Translations under genes and position numbers: made by a program
Notes under the pieces: model-generated
The model's input: the letters and a program-made list of their open reading frames with translations, nothing else
Database searches by the model: none
What the model was told of the DNA's origin: nothing
Part shown: positions 4,475 through 59,551 of the stretch, piece after piece
How the letters are laid out: the number at the start of each line of letters is the position of its first letter
Numbering within the stretch: position 1 is the stretch's first letter
NCBI GenBank assembly: GCA_937864265.1
Contig: CALMIR010000201.1
Coordinates: forward strand, 1 to 64,000
Direction of reading: 5' to 3'
DNA from: an uncultured Saprospirales bacterium
GTDB lineage: Bacteria; Bacteroidota; Bacteroidia; Chitinophagales; Saprospiraceae
DNA: 64,000 bases

Positions 4475-4625
4475 AGAGAATAGTACAAAAATGCCCGATT
4501 TTAGTTGAAACGGGGTTGTTAAAATTGTCTTATAAAAAGACGCCATGCGCTACCTGTTTTGCTATTTTTTGTAAAAAAGATCACATCCAACCTTGACAAA
4601 GATCACCGAACATGTTCCATCTGTA

Positions 4626-4656
4626 TTTGTTATTATTAGTGAAAGTCCTTGCTTTG
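4626..4656 (+). promoter_or_regulatory. Candidate Bacteroidota promoter for dps
   Basis: A -33-like TTTG at 4626-4629 is followed, after 19 nt, by TTGCTTTG at 4649-4656, one mismatch from the TAnnTTTG -7 consensus. The implied start of transcription (about 4662) precedes the ATG at 4698 by about 36 nt. An 11-bp inverted repeat (TTATTATTAGT at 4630-4640, its complement at 4682-4692) encloses the -7 box. Confidence 0.5.
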
Positions 4657-4697
4657 GACATTTTTTTGTAAAATCATCTTTACTAATAATAAGTATC

Positions 4698-5189
4698 ATG
4701 AATTACTTGGGATTAGAGCAAAACGCTATAGCCAGTACCGCAAAAGAGCTCAACTACCTGCTGGCAAACTACCATCTCTATTATCAAAATTTAAGGAATT
4801 TCCACTGGAATATTCAGGGAGAAAATTTCTTTGAATTACATGCCCAGTTTGAGAGTTTATACAATGATGCGCTTCAAAAAATAGATGCCATCGCCGAACG
4901 TATTCTCACATTGCGCCACCGCCCTTTGAGTTGTTTTTCTGACTACATCAGCCAGAGTGAAATTGACGAAAGCCATCAAGTGGATTCAGATGAAGCAATG
5001 ATCAAGATCATTTTGGAAAACCACCGCATTCTCATCATAAACATGCGTCGCATCATGGCTTTAGCAGCTGATTGCAGTGATGAGGGTACGATTGACATGA
5101 TCGGGGGATTCCTGGAAAATCTGGAGAAAAAATCATGGATGTTGGATGCTTGGTCTGTGCGAAAATTGCAGACTGCCCCTGTGTTATAA
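4698..5189 (+). CDS. dps: Dps family ferritin-like DNA-protection protein
   Basis: 163 residues, the normal Dps length. The four-helix ferritin fold is seen with the ferroxidase-site residues of helix A/B: H in NFHWNIQG, then the E and D positions of FFELHAQFESLYNDALQKID. Dps dodecamers oxidise Fe2+ with H2O2 and protect DNA during starvation and oxidative stress. A longer frame exists from 4593, but its first 35 residues are unlike Dps, and the candidate promoter overlaps that extension. The ATG at 4698 is therefore preferred. MnSOD elsewhere in the window fits the same stress theme, but the two are not linked. Confidence 0.9.
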   Translation: MNYLGLEQNAIASTAKELNYLLANYHLYYQNLRNFHWNIQGENFFELHAQFESLYNDALQKIDAIAERILTLRHRPLSCFSDYISQSEIDESHQVDSDEAMIKIILENHRILIINMRRIMALAADCSDEGTIDMIGGFLENLEKKSWMLDAWSVRKLQTAPVL

Positions 5190-53955: not shown

Positions 53956-54345
53956 ATGTGTAGATCACGTTATCATCACGGTGCTCATCATGCAGGTCGG
54001 CACGCCTGGCACCATCATTTTTCCGGTGTTCCGGTCAATATCCGCGAATTTGACGACTCCTATGAACTGAGTCTTTTTGCACCGGGGCTGACTCGGGAAG
54101 ACTTCAAATTGCAATTGGTCGATCGGCTGCTGGTCATCAGCGTTGAAGGAAAAGAAAATCCTTTTGAAGCAGGCGTCTGGAAGCGCCGCGACTATCAAAT
54201 ACGCGATTTTGAACGCAGCTTTGAGTTGAATGAAAAAATTGACTTGGACAGCATCAGCGCTTCTTATGAAGCAGGGGTACTACTGGTCAAGCTCTCCAAA
54301 CTGGCCGATCGGGTGACGCTGCGCCGGGAATTGGATCTGGTTTAA
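53956..54345 (+). CDS. Small heat-shock protein (Hsp20/alpha-crystallin)
   Basis: 129 residues. A short His-rich N-terminus (HHGAHHAGRHAWHHH) precedes an alpha-crystallin domain: VNIREFDDSYELSLFAPGLT, FKLQLVDRLLVISVEG and the closing VLLVKLSK. The protein lacks a clear IxI tail. Such proteins hold unfolded proteins during stress. The His-rich head might bind metal. A hairpin follows 20 nt after the stop. Confidence 0.85.
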   Translation: MCRSRYHHGAHHAGRHAWHHHFSGVPVNIREFDDSYELSLFAPGLTREDFKLQLVDRLLVISVEGKENPFEAGVWKRRDYQIRDFERSFELNEKIDLDSISASYEAGVLLVKLSKLADRVTLRRELDLV

Positions 54346-54365: not shown

Positions 54366-54402
54366 ATGCCGGAGCCGCTGGTTTGCAGCGGCTCCGGGCT
54401 TT
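54366..54402 (+). terminator. Hairpin 1 of an identical 33-bp pair
   Basis: The sequence CCGGAGCCGCTG-GTTTG-CAGCGGCTCCGG forms a stem of about 12 bp, followed by GCTTTT. It lies 21 nt downstream of the hsp20 stop. The core 33 bp (54366-54398) recur exactly at 56912-56944. Confidence 0.8.
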
Positions 54403-54434
54403 TGGCATCAGTAATACAGAAAATACAGTTCGAA

Positions 54435-54572
54435 TCATCCCGATATAATCTGCTTTTCTATTGAATCGTAATCATACCGAGCTATAACTGATGTTTCTGA
54501 TTTATAAAAATCAATAACTTCTAAACTAGATTTATTATCCTCATAATAGTACTACGGATTACATGATGCCAT
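54435..54572 (-). pseudogene. Remnant small ORF with in-frame TAG
   Basis: On the minus strand an ATG at 54572 reads MASCNP, meets TAG at 54552-54554, and then continues open for 38 codons (YYYEDNKSSLEVIDFYKSET ...) to TGA at 54435. The open part is acidic and Tyr-rich. A 58-residue ORF of similar make-up sits in the same position and orientation before the second ATPase (56956-57132). The two are not clearly homologous. It may be chance in AT-rich DNA or a decayed gene. Apart from this and hairpin 1, the gap 54346-54864 shows only a candidate -7 box, TATACTTG, at 54831-54838. Confidence 0.3.
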
Positions 54573-54864
54573 CATTCATGAGGTTGAAAGTCTTTTTTTC
54601 TTTCATTAAATCTTTGTTTTTAAGTTAATAATCCTATGTACGGTCGAATTTTTAAAAAGTTTCCTTAAAAGACGATTAAGCCCGATGCTAACATTTTAAG
54701 CACAAGACACTCCTCGCTTAAAAAACGTTTACTGCTTTTGTACGAGTCCTGCCAACTCAACTTAGCGTTATTTTTTCACACAAAAACATTTTTTAAACAA
54801 CAAAATTGCCTTTAATTCGATTTTTTAATTTATACTTGTGAATATTTCACGAGAATCTCCAAAT

Positions 54865-56238
54865 ATGCTTATCCGATTTGTTCTTGAAAATGTACTGTCC
54901 TTTGGCGAGCGGAAAGAATTTAACATGCTGCCCTATACCCGCTTGAATACCCTGATGCACCATGTTTACCCTATCCAAGACATTGGCTTATTGAAAATGG
55001 CAGCCATATATGGCGCAAACGGTGCAGGAAAATCTAACTTGATCAAAGCCATCCATTTGCTAAAAAGGTTGGTGACCGATAGGGACTTGCCGATTAACCT
55101 GAAAGAAAGCCAGTTCAAATTTAACGAACAGCCCGACAAAAGTCAATTGCTGGCCATTGAGTTCTTGCAAGACAACAAAGTCTATTATTACGGTATCGAA
55201 TTAACCAGGGGGATTATATCGACGGAGGAGCTTTATGAGTCGGGGCTTGGCAAAAAACCGGATACCCTTCTTTTTGAACGAAAGACAGACTCTAACAAAA
55301 AAACGACGGCTCGTTTTATGGCTGAGTTTGAACAAGATGAAAAAAGTCAGCTTTTAAAACAAGTGCTGCTGGAGGAGTTTGTACAACCCGAAAAGCCCAT
55401 GTTTAAAATTCTAGCCAATAGAGATAACCGTTTTTTGAGTGAGGTAAAAAAGGCTTACCAATGGTTTGAGGATACTTTGCAGATCATCATGCCGGAGGCC
55501 AAGCCACCTGTATTAGCACATCATTTAGATCAGGATGCACAGTTTAAAAAATATGCGGAAGAACTGATGCGCTCTTTTTCTACTGGTATTGTCCACCTCG
55601 AAACAGAAAAAAAGGAGATTCGCGAATTCTTTGGGGAAGACGACAAAGAGGAAGCAGAACGTTTGAGCCGCTATGTGGATACCGCGCCAGGTCAAATGAT
55701 CAGTTTGCGTGCGGCTGGGCGCGATGAAAAAGTTATAGTAAAAGAAAACGACAAAGTATGGGTCAAAAGCTTAAAGCTGGCTCATATAAACGAAGGTGGG
55801 CAACCTGTTTGGTTCGACCTGGCAGAAGAATCTGATGGAACCATCCGCTTGCTAGATTTTGTACCTGCGCTGAAAGAAGTCATAGCCAGTCCCAAGGTAT
55901 TCCTCATTGACGAGATAGAACGGAGCATCCACCCGCTTTTGATTAAAGAGTTATTAAAAAAATTCTCGCTTGACCCTGCTACTCAGGGGCAACTCATATT
56001 TACTACCCATGAATCGAACTTGCTGGATCAGTCTATCTTCCGGCAGGATGAAACCTGGTTTGTGGAAAAGGATACTTATGGCTCCAGCGATTTATATACT
56101 TTAAGTGCTTTCAAAGAACATAAAACCATCGATATCCGCAAAGGATATTTGAGTGGGCGTTATGGTTCTATTCCTTTTTTAGCTAACCTGACCGATCTAA
56201 ACTGGCACGAGTATGTTGATTCAAAACAGGCTGTTTGA
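54865..56238 (+). CDS. RloA-like AAA ATPase, module 1
   Basis: 457 residues from the ATG at 54865; a GTG at 54838 overlaps the TATACTTG box and adds nine residues. Walker A is GANGAGKS (residues 50-57), Walker B is FLIDEIERSIHP, a His switch is in FTTHESNLLD. The C-terminus carries YLSGRYGSIPFL, a motif shared with module 2 (YLRGKYGAVPFL). The protein is of the AAA_15/RloA type. RloA and RloB genes are found beside restriction loci and are counted as candidate anti-phage pairs. The stop overlaps the start of the RloB gene by 26 nt, so expression is coupled. Confidence 0.85.
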   Translation: MLIRFVLENVLSFGERKEFNMLPYTRLNTLMHHVYPIQDIGLLKMAAIYGANGAGKSNLIKAIHLLKRLVTDRDLPINLKESQFKFNEQPDKSQLLAIEFLQDNKVYYYGIELTRGIISTEELYESGLGKKPDTLLFERKTDSNKKTTARFMAEFEQDEKSQLLKQVLLEEFVQPEKPMFKILANRDNRFLSEVKKAYQWFEDTLQIIMPEAKPPVLAHHLDQDAQFKKYAEELMRSFSTGIVHLETEKKEIREFFGEDDKEEAERLSRYVDTAPGQMISLRAAGRDEKVIVKENDKVWVKSLKLAHINEGGQPVWFDLAEESDGTIRLLDFVPALKEVIASPKVFLIDEIERSIHPLLIKELLKKFSLDPATQGQLIFTTHESNLLDQSIFRQDETWFVEKDTYGSSDLYTLSAFKEHKTIDIRKGYLSGRYGSIPFLANLTDLNWHEYVDSKQAV

Positions 56239-56890
56239 GAAGGAAGCGCCCGACCGCAATGCGTCATGCATTTACCTGTTTTGTGAGGGCATCAAGCGGG
56301 AACTTGAATATTTCCGTTTTTTCCAAAATAAAGACTCCAGACTGAAGGTGGAAGTCTATCCGTTCAGTCCAAATGAGGACAACTCTCCACGGGGACTTAT
56401 GGATATGGCTAAAAAATGCTTTTTCATCAGTGATGAAAACCTTTCTGTGAAGTATGAAATCCAGGAAGAAGATGAAGTGTGGATTGTCCTAGATAGTGAC
56501 CCGGACAAGTGGGACAGTAGAAGAACCCAAATAGAAGAGGTGAAAAAATTTTGTATGGAAAATAAAGGCTGGAATGTGGCAGAAAGCAACCCCTGTTTTG
56601 AAGTTTGGCTTTATTACCATCGGTCAAATGTAAAAGCAGAATTTGAAGGAGAGGGAAGTTGTAAAAACTGGAAGCAATTGGTTGACCAGGAGTTTAAGGG
56701 CGGTTTCGATAGCAGGAAGCATCCTATTAACATAGAAACAGCCACCAATAATGCGAAATTAAACTACGCAGTAGATGAGAACGAAAAACCACTTGTAGGT
56801 TCTACCGCCGTTTTTCGTCTCGGCCATAATCTGCTGAAGCTATTGAAACCCAAAATTGATAAGGCATTGAAAAAAATGCAAACCAGTTGA
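56213..56890 (+). CDS. RloB-like TOPRIM-type protein, module 1
   Basis: 225 residues. Conserved acidic sites are CEGIKRELEYF (E25, E30), VWIVLDSDPD (D94, D96), and ESNPCFEVWLYYH (E130, W132, H136). These match the RloB family, whose TOPRIM-like fold suggests a metal-dependent nuclease. The gene overlaps the ATPase by 26 nt. The 33-bp hairpin copy starts 22 nt after its stop, so the module ends here. Confidence 0.8.
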   Translation: MLIQNRLFEKEAPDRNASCIYLFCEGIKRELEYFRFFQNKDSRLKVEVYPFSPNEDNSPRGLMDMAKKCFFISDENLSVKYEIQEEDEVWIVLDSDPDKWDSRRTQIEEVKKFCMENKGWNVAESNPCFEVWLYYHRSNVKAEFEGEGSCKNWKQLVDQEFKGGFDSRKHPINIETATNNAKLNYAVDENEKPLVGSTAVFRLGHNLLKLLKPKIDKALKKMQTS

Positions 56891-56911
56891 TCTTGACAAG
56901 AGTAGGCTTTT

Positions 56912-56944
56912 ATGCCGGAGCCGCTGGTTTGCAGCGGCTCCGGG
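56912..56944 (+). repeat. Hairpin 2, identical 33-bp copy
   Basis: The same 33 bases as 54366-54398. It lacks the following T-run, so it is a weaker terminator here. The preceding 15 nt (GACAAGAGTAGGCTT, 56894-56908) also occur in each 257-bp unit at 7213-8241. Confidence 0.85.
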
Positions 56945-56955
56945 TTCCTAAAATA

Positions 56956-57132
56956 CTAAAAGTATAACTTCAGCTTTTGCCTAGAAGCATCATCGGAATA
57001 TAATATTTCGTTACTTTCGTAATTGATTTTCGGCTCGGCAGAAGGCGATAATTTAGAAATAATTATTATTGACTTTATATCATCTATATAGCTTTCATCT
57101 ACATAATCAACGTAGATACTAGACGTAGCCAT
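56956..57132 (-). CDS. Small acidic protein (58 aa) divergent from module 2 ATPase
   Basis: MATSSIYVDYVDESYIDDIK begins a 58-residue soluble, acidic, Tyr-rich product ending RQKLKLYF. It has no predicted helix in the membrane and no known domain. It is transcribed away from the second ATPase. A near-consensus CATTTTTG lies about 20-25 nt upstream on the minus strand. It might be a small regulator or antitoxin-like partner; that is inference from position alone. The rest of the gap 56891-57368 holds hairpin 2 and a TATTTTTG box at 57333-57340. Confidence 0.4.
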   Translation of the reverse strand: MATSSIYVDYVDESYIDDIKSIIIISKLSPSAEPKINYESNEILYSDDASRQKLKLYF

Positions 57133-57332
57133 GATTATGAGTTGTTAGCAAAAATGATGATTTTTTTTTCATAAATTCAAATTTTGGTTAAAGAATCAAT
57201 TCTTCCGGGCCTTAGCCCTTCTCATTTTAAAGCGCCAGTTCCCAAAACTTTCCTACGAAACTTCAGATCAAAAGTTTCAACCCCAATTGAAACAAAAAGC
57301 AAGTAAATAGCGTTATTCTGTAAAATAATGCG

Positions 57333-57340
57333 TATTTTTG
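57333..57340 (+). promoter_or_regulatory. TATTTTTG -7 box for module 2
   Basis: Exact TAnnTTTG match, 28 nt upstream of the ATG at 57369. No -33 match was found. Confidence 0.4.
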
Positions 57341-57368
57341 CAAATATCTCGCATTAAAATAACTTATT

Positions 57369-58682
57369 ATGCTAGTATTGTTTTCGGTTAAGAACTTTAA
57401 AACCTTCAAAGACAAAGCGGTTTTAAACTTGGTAGCATCCAATTATGAAAAAAGCGAAGACCTAGAAGGTGAGCCATTGCACACGGATAGCCAGTTCAAT
57501 CTAAAAATATTGAAAAGTGCCGTGGTATATGGCGCCAATGCCAGCGGCAAAACAAAACTGGTAGAGGCTCTTGGCTTTATGAAGCGGTTTGTACTGGACA
57601 ATCATAGTGTCAAAGGGCAACCCATTCCTGTAACCCCCTTCCGATTGAACACGGAAACAGAATCGGCACCATCTGAATTTGAAGTGGCATTCATACACAA
57701 TAAAGTCTTGTATCGCTATGGGTTTGAAGCTGACAGCGAGCGAATTTGCGCCGAATGGCTCTATTATCGCCCAAAAACCAAAGAAATTGAACTGTTTTAC
57801 AGAGAGCTTCAGGAGTTTGAAACCCATGCACGCAACTTTCCAAAGGGTAACCTCGTAATCAAACAAGAGTTGGTCGCAGAAAACGCATTGCTACTTGCCG
57901 TAGCCGCCCAATTCAACGACGACATTTGCAATCAGGTAATGGAATGGTTTGGAACACTCAAGGTTATATCGGGGGCAAATGAGGAGCGCTACAAGGCATA
58001 TACTATGAAACAAACGCAAATCCCTGATAGAAAAAGGAAAATACTGGAGTTATTGAATGCCGCTGATTTGGGCATCGAAGACGTTCAACTCAAGAAAATG
58101 AATGCGGATCAACTCCCTCCCGATTTACGCGACATCATCTTTCAAAAAATGGCCAATGCCGGGTCAGAAGCCATGAGCGGCGTAGAAACAACACATAAAA
58201 AAAGGGATAGCTCCGGCCAGTTTGTCGAGCATGTTCAATTCTCGATGGAGGAGGACGAATCTAATGGTACAGAAAAATTCTACATTTTAGCCGGACCAAT
58301 ACTTGATGTCTTAGAAAATGGCTACACCCTGGTGGTGGACGAACTGGATGCCAAACTCCATTCCAACTTGGTAGCGCGTCTGGTGTCCCTTTTTCATTCT
58401 AACGCATTGAATCCCAAGAATGCCCAACTCATTTTCAATACACACGATACCAATCTGCTCAGTGCCGATTTGTTCCGCAGAGATCAGATATGGTTTACGG
58501 AAAAAAACAGGTACGGCGAAGCGGAATTGTTTTCACTGGCCGATTTCAAATCAGCCGATGGGGTGAGAAAAAATGAAGCCTACGAGAAAAATTACTTGCG
58601 TGGCAAATATGGGGCAGTGCCTTTCCTCGGCTCTTTTAGATATCTCACAGAATTGGTTTCAAGCGATAATAGAATAGATTAA
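57369..58682 (+). CDS. RloA-like AAA ATPase, module 2
   Basis: 437 residues. Walker A is GANASGKT (residues 55-62) in an N-terminus of the form MLVLFSVKNFKTFKDKA. Walker B is LVVDELDAKLH and the His switch is in FNTHDTNLLS. The C-terminal YLRGKYGAVPF motif is shared with module 1. The two ATPases are clearly paralogous but diverged in the middle. The stop is 2 nt before the RloB start. Likely dimeric and ATP-driven; the trigger is unknown. Confidence 0.85.
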   Translation: MLVLFSVKNFKTFKDKAVLNLVASNYEKSEDLEGEPLHTDSQFNLKILKSAVVYGANASGKTKLVEALGFMKRFVLDNHSVKGQPIPVTPFRLNTETESAPSEFEVAFIHNKVLYRYGFEADSERICAEWLYYRPKTKEIELFYRELQEFETHARNFPKGNLVIKQELVAENALLLAVAAQFNDDICNQVMEWFGTLKVISGANEERYKAYTMKQTQIPDRKRKILELLNAADLGIEDVQLKKMNADQLPPDLRDIIFQKMANAGSEAMSGVETTHKKRDSSGQFVEHVQFSMEEDESNGTEKFYILAGPILDVLENGYTLVVDELDAKLHSNLVARLVSLFHSNALNPKNAQLIFNTHDTNLLSADLFRRDQIWFTEKNRYGEAELFSLADFKSADGVRKNEAYEKNYLRGKYGAVPFLGSFRYLTELVSSDNRID

Positions 58683-58684
58683 GT

Positions 58685-59347
58685 ATGGCTAAAAAAGGTA
58701 AAAAGCAGCAAAACCTAAATGACAGAAGGAAAGAGAAGAACTATAATTCAGAGGGAAAAGGAAAGATAAAGAGGAAAGAACCTTCTTTCTTAATCGTTTG
58801 TGGAGGTGTGAATACAGAGCCTTCTTACTTTGGTGGCTTTAGATTTGAGGCCTTCGGTTTCGGCTGCGATGCCCGTTCTGTGGTAACAGAGGCAGAGAAA
58901 AAGGCAAGGAAAGAGGAATACGACCAAATTTGGTGTGTTTTTGACAAAGACGACGATCCTCATTTCAACGAAGCCATAAAAGAAGCAGAAAAAAAAGGCT
59001 TTAAAGTCGCTTATTCCAATCAGGCTTTCGAATACTGGATCATTCTACACTTTGATGATCATCAAGGCGGGCCAATGCACCGCGATCAATACCATGATAA
59101 GGTAAACCAGTTATTGAAACCATACAATGTGGCTTATGACGGTAAAGGAAGCAAAAAAATCTCCGATCAGCTTTTTGAACTTCTTGATAGCAGGGATGAA
59201 AAAACAGGGAAAGAACGAATTCGGCTAGCTATTGAGCGCGCCAAACGCATCTACAACCGATACGACCATACCAATCCCTCAGCCGAAGAATCTTCCACCA
59301 CAGTTTTTGAACTTGTAGAAGAAATATTAAAGTTTCGAAAACCTTAG
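58685..59347 (+). CDS. RloB protein, module 2
   Basis: 220 residues with a very basic N-terminus (about residues 1-32, rich in Lys) that suits nucleic-acid binding. RloB motifs are GGVNTEPSYF (E45), VFDKDDDPHF (D87, D89) and SNQAFEYWIILHF (E116, W118, H122). The family is predicted to be a metal-dependent nuclease of TOPRIM type. It is translated with the upstream ATPase. It converges on the HMA gene 6 nt away. Confidence 0.85.
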   Translation: MAKKGKKQQNLNDRRKEKNYNSEGKGKIKRKEPSFLIVCGGVNTEPSYFGGFRFEAFGFGCDARSVVTEAEKKARKEEYDQIWCVFDKDDDPHFNEAIKEAEKKGFKVAYSNQAFEYWIILHFDDHQGGPMHRDQYHDKVNQLLKPYNVAYDGKGSKKISDQLFELLDSRDEKTGKERIRLAIERAKRIYNRYDHTNPSAEESSTTVFELVEEILKFRKP

Positions 59348-59353
59348 CCCTTT

Positions 59354-59551
59354 CTACCCAACCAGCCGATAATGCCCCACCGCATCCTGCAACACCGCTG
59401 TATCAATCGGTTCCTTCATTTTCACTACGGCCTGTCCGGGGTTCAAAGTCACTTCTACTGCCTCAACGCCTTCTACCGACTCTAGGGCAAATTTTACGCT
59501 GGCTACGCAGCCATTGCAGGTCATGCCCTGCACTTCAAACTGTTTTTCCAT
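59354..59551 (-). CDS. Heavy-metal-associated (HMA) domain protein
   Basis: 65 residues, one HMA ferredoxin-like domain with the metal-binding motif GMTCNGC (Cys 12 and 15). It resembles CopZ-type copper chaperones. No copper ATPase is adjacent. It converges with the rloB gene. Confidence 0.9.
   Translation of the reverse strand: MEKQFEVQGMTCNGCVASVKFALESVEGVEAVEVTLNPGQAVVKMKEPIDTAVLQDAVGHYRLVG

Follow-up and report, generated by a model that had tools for sequence, protein, structure and literature searches.

A two-gene AbiL-type module probably inserted at the likely hsp20 terminator hairpin of an uncultured Saprospirales bacterium

In a 64,000-nucleotide stretch of DNA from an uncultured Saprospirales bacterium (contig CALMIR010000201.1, positions 1 to 64,000 of the forward strand; hereafter the window), two consecutive modules, each made up of an ATPase gene and a gene of the RloB family, follow the gene hsp20, and the first of them (module 1) is enclosed by two identical copies of a 33-bp hairpin. 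This raises the question of how a unit of two genes came to lie between two copies of one hairpin and, to our knowledge, the more general question of how short defence systems without a recombinase enter and leave their sites is not settled. The reading that we favour, with a probability of about 0.62, is that module 1 was inserted at the likely terminator of hsp20 as a bare two-gene defence unit without a recombinase of its own, and that the hairpin was doubled in the process.

The hairpin pair around module 1

The repeated element (ATGCCGGAGCCGCTGGTTTGCAGCGGCTCCGGG) consists of a 12-bp perfect stem and a 5-nt loop, with a fold of -28.1 kcal/mol (z -6.4 vs. shuffles). In line with the preliminary description of this locus, its copies at 54,366–54,398 and 56,912–56,944 on the plus strand were identical at 33/33 positions and spaced by 2,546 bp, while the number of such repeats expected in shuffles of the window was 0. 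The first copy lies 20 nt 3' of the stop codon of hsp20 (Hsp20/alpha-crystallin; 53,956–54,345, plus strand; Pfam HSP20, 1.7e-13) and, since CTTTT stands directly behind it, is likely the terminator of that gene. The second copy lies 21 nt 3' of the stop codon of rloB1, the last gene of module 1.

That the hairpin might be an ordinary terminator scattered over the genome had been named beforehand as an alternative, and was put to the test. When the whole genome (6,288,132 bases in 211 contigs) was searched for the stem, with the 5-nt loop left free and no more than three mismatches allowed, the pattern was found only at these two places; the 395 other genomes of the order all lacked it at up to two mismatches, and viral contigs held no exact match to the hairpin. 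It is therefore not a common terminator, and most likely one of the two copies arose from the other. Two ordinary terminators that owe their identity to chance, convergence or gene conversion, without any insertion event, would account for the position of both copies 20–21 nt behind a stop codon, and genome G055 provides an instance of similar terminators recurring. However, the loop and the flanking bases are identical as well, a third copy of the stem is missing from the 6.29 Mb, and kin of a related genome, G151, have empty sites (see below), all of which renders this explanation very improbable.

The hairpin pair bounds module 1 only, so that a crossover between the copies would delete exactly this module, as had been proposed. 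No transposase is encoded between the hairpins, where the only large open reading frames (ORFs) are the two module genes (Pfam AAA_21 and RloB), and a recombinase is likewise absent from the genes of the unit. The unit has no terminal inverted repeats, the sole inverted pair at both ends being the self-complementary hairpin itself, and with two copies genome-wide the hairpin does not form an attC-like array at the window. Among ten neighbouring genes scanned no recombinase was matched; six matched other families (e.g., superoxide dismutase and fumarase) and four matched no Pfam family.

Empty sites in the kin of G151

G151 carries two AbiL-type modules, at the loci L191 and L175, each of which lies between hairpin copies (one copy being partial). 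At L191, the module is enclosed by exact 35-bp repeats that contain a 32-nt hairpin, and the insert of 2,085 bp holds the ATPase and RloB genes only. In three of the six genomes of the genus (G452, G056 and G460), both neighbours of this module are joined through a single hairpin; the left gene is 85–94% identical in these kin (spread over two frames in G460), the identity of the right gene is 96–98%, and in two other, less complete genomes of the genus the left gene found no match. Positions 4610–5096 and 7143–8618 of L191 align to adjoining stretches of L203, with an overlap of 39 bp that corresponds to the repeat. At L175, both flanks and one hairpin are present in G056 and G460, and the right flank with one hairpin, next to a different left side, in G452. 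Loss of the unit from the kin through recombination between the repeats, instead of a gain by G151, would also fit these data; either way, the unit enters or leaves cleanly at the hairpin. In both G151 loci the rloB gene (L191 6485–7138; L175 6531–7094) has a premature stop codon and the ATPase gene is open.

In a 400-kb comparison of G151 with G056, 8 of 11 other large indels had an alignment overlap of at most 12 nt, and the other three had overlaps of 27, 67 and 129 nt, so that AbiL units are not alone in having such repeats. One difference between these genomes, at G151:C2:1353792-1357006, is a pair of genes that by sequence impression are DUF262-like and AAA; this pair is absent from G056 and separates a gene from its likely terminator with no duplication.

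The ends of the L191 repeats bear on the main rival, a Campbell-type homologous integration, in which the module, together with one copy of the same terminator or gene end, would have left this locus in a sister strain as a circle and then re-entered by a single crossover. The left copy ends like G460 (GCTTTTC) and the right copy like G056 (GCATTTTC), as if two alleles had met, which slightly favours such a crossover for spread within a site. It would also explain why the repeats are the target's own sequence and bound the module alone, and related modules do occur on small plasmids of about 4.9–5.1 kb. On the other hand, this route covers spread within a site and not the first duplication at a new one, the repeats differ by locus, and 33–40 bp is short for RecA-dependent exchange. 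We consider it unlikely as the origin of the pair in the window.

By analogy with the G151 units, module 1, for which the gene content and the presence and uniqueness of the hairpin copies are observed directly, probably took the same insertion route. Insertion units of 2.1–2.5 kb with a doubled landing site can thus be recognised, in the case of G151 in nearly closed genomes with empty-site kin (G056, G460, G452), so that both the agent that cuts or copies the hairpin and the ability of the unit to leave again can be tested.

Flanking repeats in a wider survey and the route of insertion

Two sets of modules were surveyed for flanking repeats. Set 1 comprised 80 loci of the aaa2 family from genome_contigs, the best of at least 569 (aaa1 and aaa2 being the ATPase genes of modules 1 and 2), 39 matches to aaa1, the locus L118 (see below) and the window; the 39 were all the matches at E ≤ 1e-40 that 396 genomes of the order gave when the genome of the window was set aside. 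An exact direct repeat of at least 17 nt within 1.5 kb on both sides was found for 11/122 modules vs. 2/268 shifted controls. With local alignment of the 600 bp before the ATPase gene to the 500 bp behind the RloB gene, 14/112 modules reached the threshold score of 38 vs. 11/572 random windows; the window was counted once, for module 1, and module 2 had no flanking repeat at this threshold. Set 2 was drawn from RloB matches across the phylum, where 63/395 genomes had one at E ≤ 1e-10, and gave 60 regions, 53 of them usable. Repeats flanked six of these 53 modules, or 5/51 after removal of two loci common to set 1, vs. 1/280 controls.

As a stricter, gene-anchored control, the same DNA was sampled for pairs of genes on one strand, 531 in all. 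Twenty of them reached score 38, 14 of which fell in an integron-like array or in repeats recurring over the G151/G056 stretches. Against this control the pooled value was 19/163 modules vs. 20/531 pairs (p = 4e-4), an approximately threefold enrichment; set 1 alone gave p = 7e-4.

One of the flanked modules belongs to the same genome as the window. L118 (3149–5131, contig C148) is its third AbiL-type pair, 36% identical to aaa1, and is bounded by a 75-bp repeat (97% identical) that is the 3' end, with the stop codon, of the adjoining 205-aa gene; apart from matches of at most 20 nt, this repeat has no other occurrence in the genome. The pair is convergent to a 2OG-oxygenase-like gene (named from sequence impression only), and it is the 3' end of this gene that recurs beyond the other side of the pair.

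Across loci, the repeats vary in sequence and in length (20–122 nt). Besides that of the window, hairpin repeats by fold were those of L191 (z -5.8), L178 (z -8.7), L170 (z -2.1) and L082 (z -3.3); the L175 repeat is also a hairpin. Of the other repeats, that of L286 showed a good fold (z -3.7), that of L109 a modest one (z -2.3) and the remaining ones nothing unusual in their folding. The L058 repeat is a gene end like that of L118, made up of the final codons and the stop of the ORF upstream. The copied stretch begins at most 22 nt from the rloB stop, or includes it, in five cases (the window, L191, L178, L170 and L118).

Direct repeats at both ends, with gene 3' ends and terminators as targets, are also what site-specific integration by a recombinase acting in trans would leave, the repeats then being attachment-site cores, which often lie at gene 3' ends; an AbiL-type pair of Christiangramia within an integron-like array (L038) would agree with this. 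The repeats nevertheless differ between loci in both sequence and length, and a recombinase was found neither in the unit nor among the ten neighbours, allowing for the four without a Pfam family. Such an origin is thus quite improbable, more so than the Campbell-type crossover.

For insertion at the likely hsp20 terminator, the order before the event would have been hsp20, hairpin, module 2 and HMA (the convergent neighbour of module 2). The target stretch would have been copied during insertion and left on both sides of the unit, most likely because the hairpin was broken or the template was switched there; a staggered break at its base or a switch during replication would suffice. Since the unit has no recombinase, the duplication would be taken from the target, and since the repeats are target-derived and of varying length, a copy of the target would have been made during insertion; this recombinase-free, target-derived route is suggested with less confidence than the insertion itself. 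The duplicated hairpin would provide a ready-made terminator for rloB, and recombination between the copies would make the unit removable. In function, the ATPase would keep the RloB nuclease inactive and free it upon phage infection, similar to AriA and AriB in PARIS.

Several observations weigh against insertion with doubling. At the window, the second hairpin copy has no U-run, and for the locus itself no empty site was found, the genus of the window being represented by one genome. Both cases with empty sites come from the single genome G151, and the left hairpin copy of L175 is only half. A 1.6-kb segment of G151 with three genes of unknown kind (G151:C2:1293826-1295920), absent from G056, also has flanking repeats, namely the 129-bp flanking-alignment overlap and a 20-nt hairpin pair with one mismatch, and the pattern may therefore extend beyond defence modules. 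The case of L178 is weak because similar hairpins recur in the locus; the repeats of L118, L058, L288 and L315 fold no better than shuffles, and in L175 and L082 the repeat lies about 60 and about 80 nt behind rloB, respectively. In the survey, set 2 alone (5/51) was not significant vs. the gene-anchored controls (p = 0.06), and 144/163 modules, module 2 included, had no flanking repeat at the threshold.

A broader proposal is that bare two-gene modules are self-mobile without an encoded recombinase, entering terminator hairpins or gene 3' ends and doubling their landing site. We regard this as tentative and rather doubtful. If true, the toxin gene would gain a terminator and the unit a built-in exit by recombination between the copies, and AbiL pairs across the Bacteroidota would form a class of mobile units, 'terminator cassettes', that stands between insertion sequences and integron cassettes.

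The two modules and their relation to known systems

Module 1 consists of aaa1 (54,865–56,238, plus strand; 457 aa; Pfam PF13304, 1.9e-34; PADLOC AbiLi, 4.6e-78) and rloB1 (56,213–56,890, plus strand; 225 aa; PF13707, 2.7e-25; AbiLii, 9.7e-19), a predicted TOPRIM-type effector, and is preceded by an AT-rich leader of 466 bp (54,399–54,864, plus strand; 30% GC), a likely promoter region. Module 2 has a leader of 424 bp (56,945–57,368, plus strand; AT-rich, 31% GC), followed by aaa2 (57,369–58,682, plus strand; 437 aa; PF13304, 5.8e-30; AbiLi, 1.3e-100) and rloB2 (58,685–59,347, plus strand; 220 aa; PF13707, 1.1e-43; AbiLii, 2e-30). As initially described, the genes within each module overlap or nearly touch (26-bp overlap of aaa1 and rloB1; 2-bp gap between aaa2 and rloB2), and both ATPases share the YLxGxYGxxPF motif (YLSGRYGSIPF and YLRGKYGAVPF). 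Their initial assignment as AAA_15-type needs correction in the name: in Pfam AAA_21 came first and AAA_15 second, and AAA_15 fell below the cut-off for module 2, so AAA_21 is the better family name for both.

The proteins of the two modules are only 25% (ATPase) and 26% (RloB) identical, and the leaders align like randomised sequence (local score 23 vs. a random mean of 23.6), which agrees with the earlier view of diverged modules and rules out a recent tandem duplication; the sequences indicate that the modules diverged anciently. In an alignment, rloB2 has Gly in place of the Glu of the TOPRIM motif (CGG for CEG, in VCGGVNTE), and because of this change the module 2 nuclease may be altered or inactive. 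Gly stands at the same place in L072, L112 and L284, and Gln in L058, L061, L063 and L064.

By family, both modules are predicted phage-defence modules. Like AbiL (AbiLi-AbiLii) of Lactococcus lactis, they start with an AAA ATPase of AbiLi type, whose Walker A motif reads GANGAGKS in module 1 and GANASGKT in module 2, and have an RloB/AbiLii protein encoded directly downstream. AbiL is described as a bicistronic, plasmid-encoded system that acts by abortive infection via AbiLii (PMC10440598). The modules of the window, in contrast, are chromosomal and form two diverged pairs in tandem, one of them between doubled hairpins, and the RloB of module 2 lacks the motif Glu. AbiL is already known, and its occurrence as a tandem of two diverged pairs is a new instance of it; the landing-site duplication with empty-site kin is new here. 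Judged by titles and abstract openings, none of the open-licence papers listed in literature searches (at most the top 15 of each) describes natural defence modules that duplicate a terminator; a marker gene flanked by terminators on both sides has been reported as a laboratory construct (PMC8880864). With regard to plasmids, 181 records matched aaa2, 93 of them predicted to be mobilizable, and 16/17 records of distant relatives (33%; hits H14–H30) were plasmids of 4.9–5.1 kb from Enterobacter, Klebsiella and Escherichia.

AriB belongs to the DUF4435 family. As in PARIS (AriA-AriB), the ATPase and the predicted TOPRIM-type effector are separate genes in the window, and both ATPases match PADLOC AriA (2.4e-33 and 6.6e-28); no AriB-type effector was found, however, as both effectors match only RloB (PF13707) in Pfam and only AbiLii in PADLOC. 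In PARIS, AriA is described as restraining AriB until phage infection (PMC12409363). The effectors share the RloB family name with RloA/RloB of restriction-linked loci, but no restriction-modification family was present among the neighbours scanned. The module 1 unit resembles integron cassettes with defence genes in being short and bounded by direct repeats, and differs from them in that its repeat has two copies genome-wide, with no array and no integrase match among the scanned neighbours. An AbiL-type pair within an integron-like array was observed at L038 of Christiangramia gaetbulicola, where a repeat of about 127 bp is present within 13 kb in 10 near-full copies and a partial one.

Downstream, the HMA heavy-metal-binding protein gene (59,354–59,551, minus strand; Pfam HMA, 2.5e-11) is convergent to rloB2 and lies 6 bp from its stop codon. 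With respect to the hsp20 locus in relatives, hsp20 was detected at E ≤ 1e-15 in 66/199 genomes of the family, the own genome included, and the hsp20 regions of 12 relatives (L120–L131; up to 20 kb each, some ending at a contig end) held no match to the modules or to HMA at E ≤ 1e-5. They thus gave no support to the earlier proposal of repeated acquisition next to hsp20. A 58-aa ORF (56,956–57,132, minus strand) lies between the second hairpin copy and module 2.

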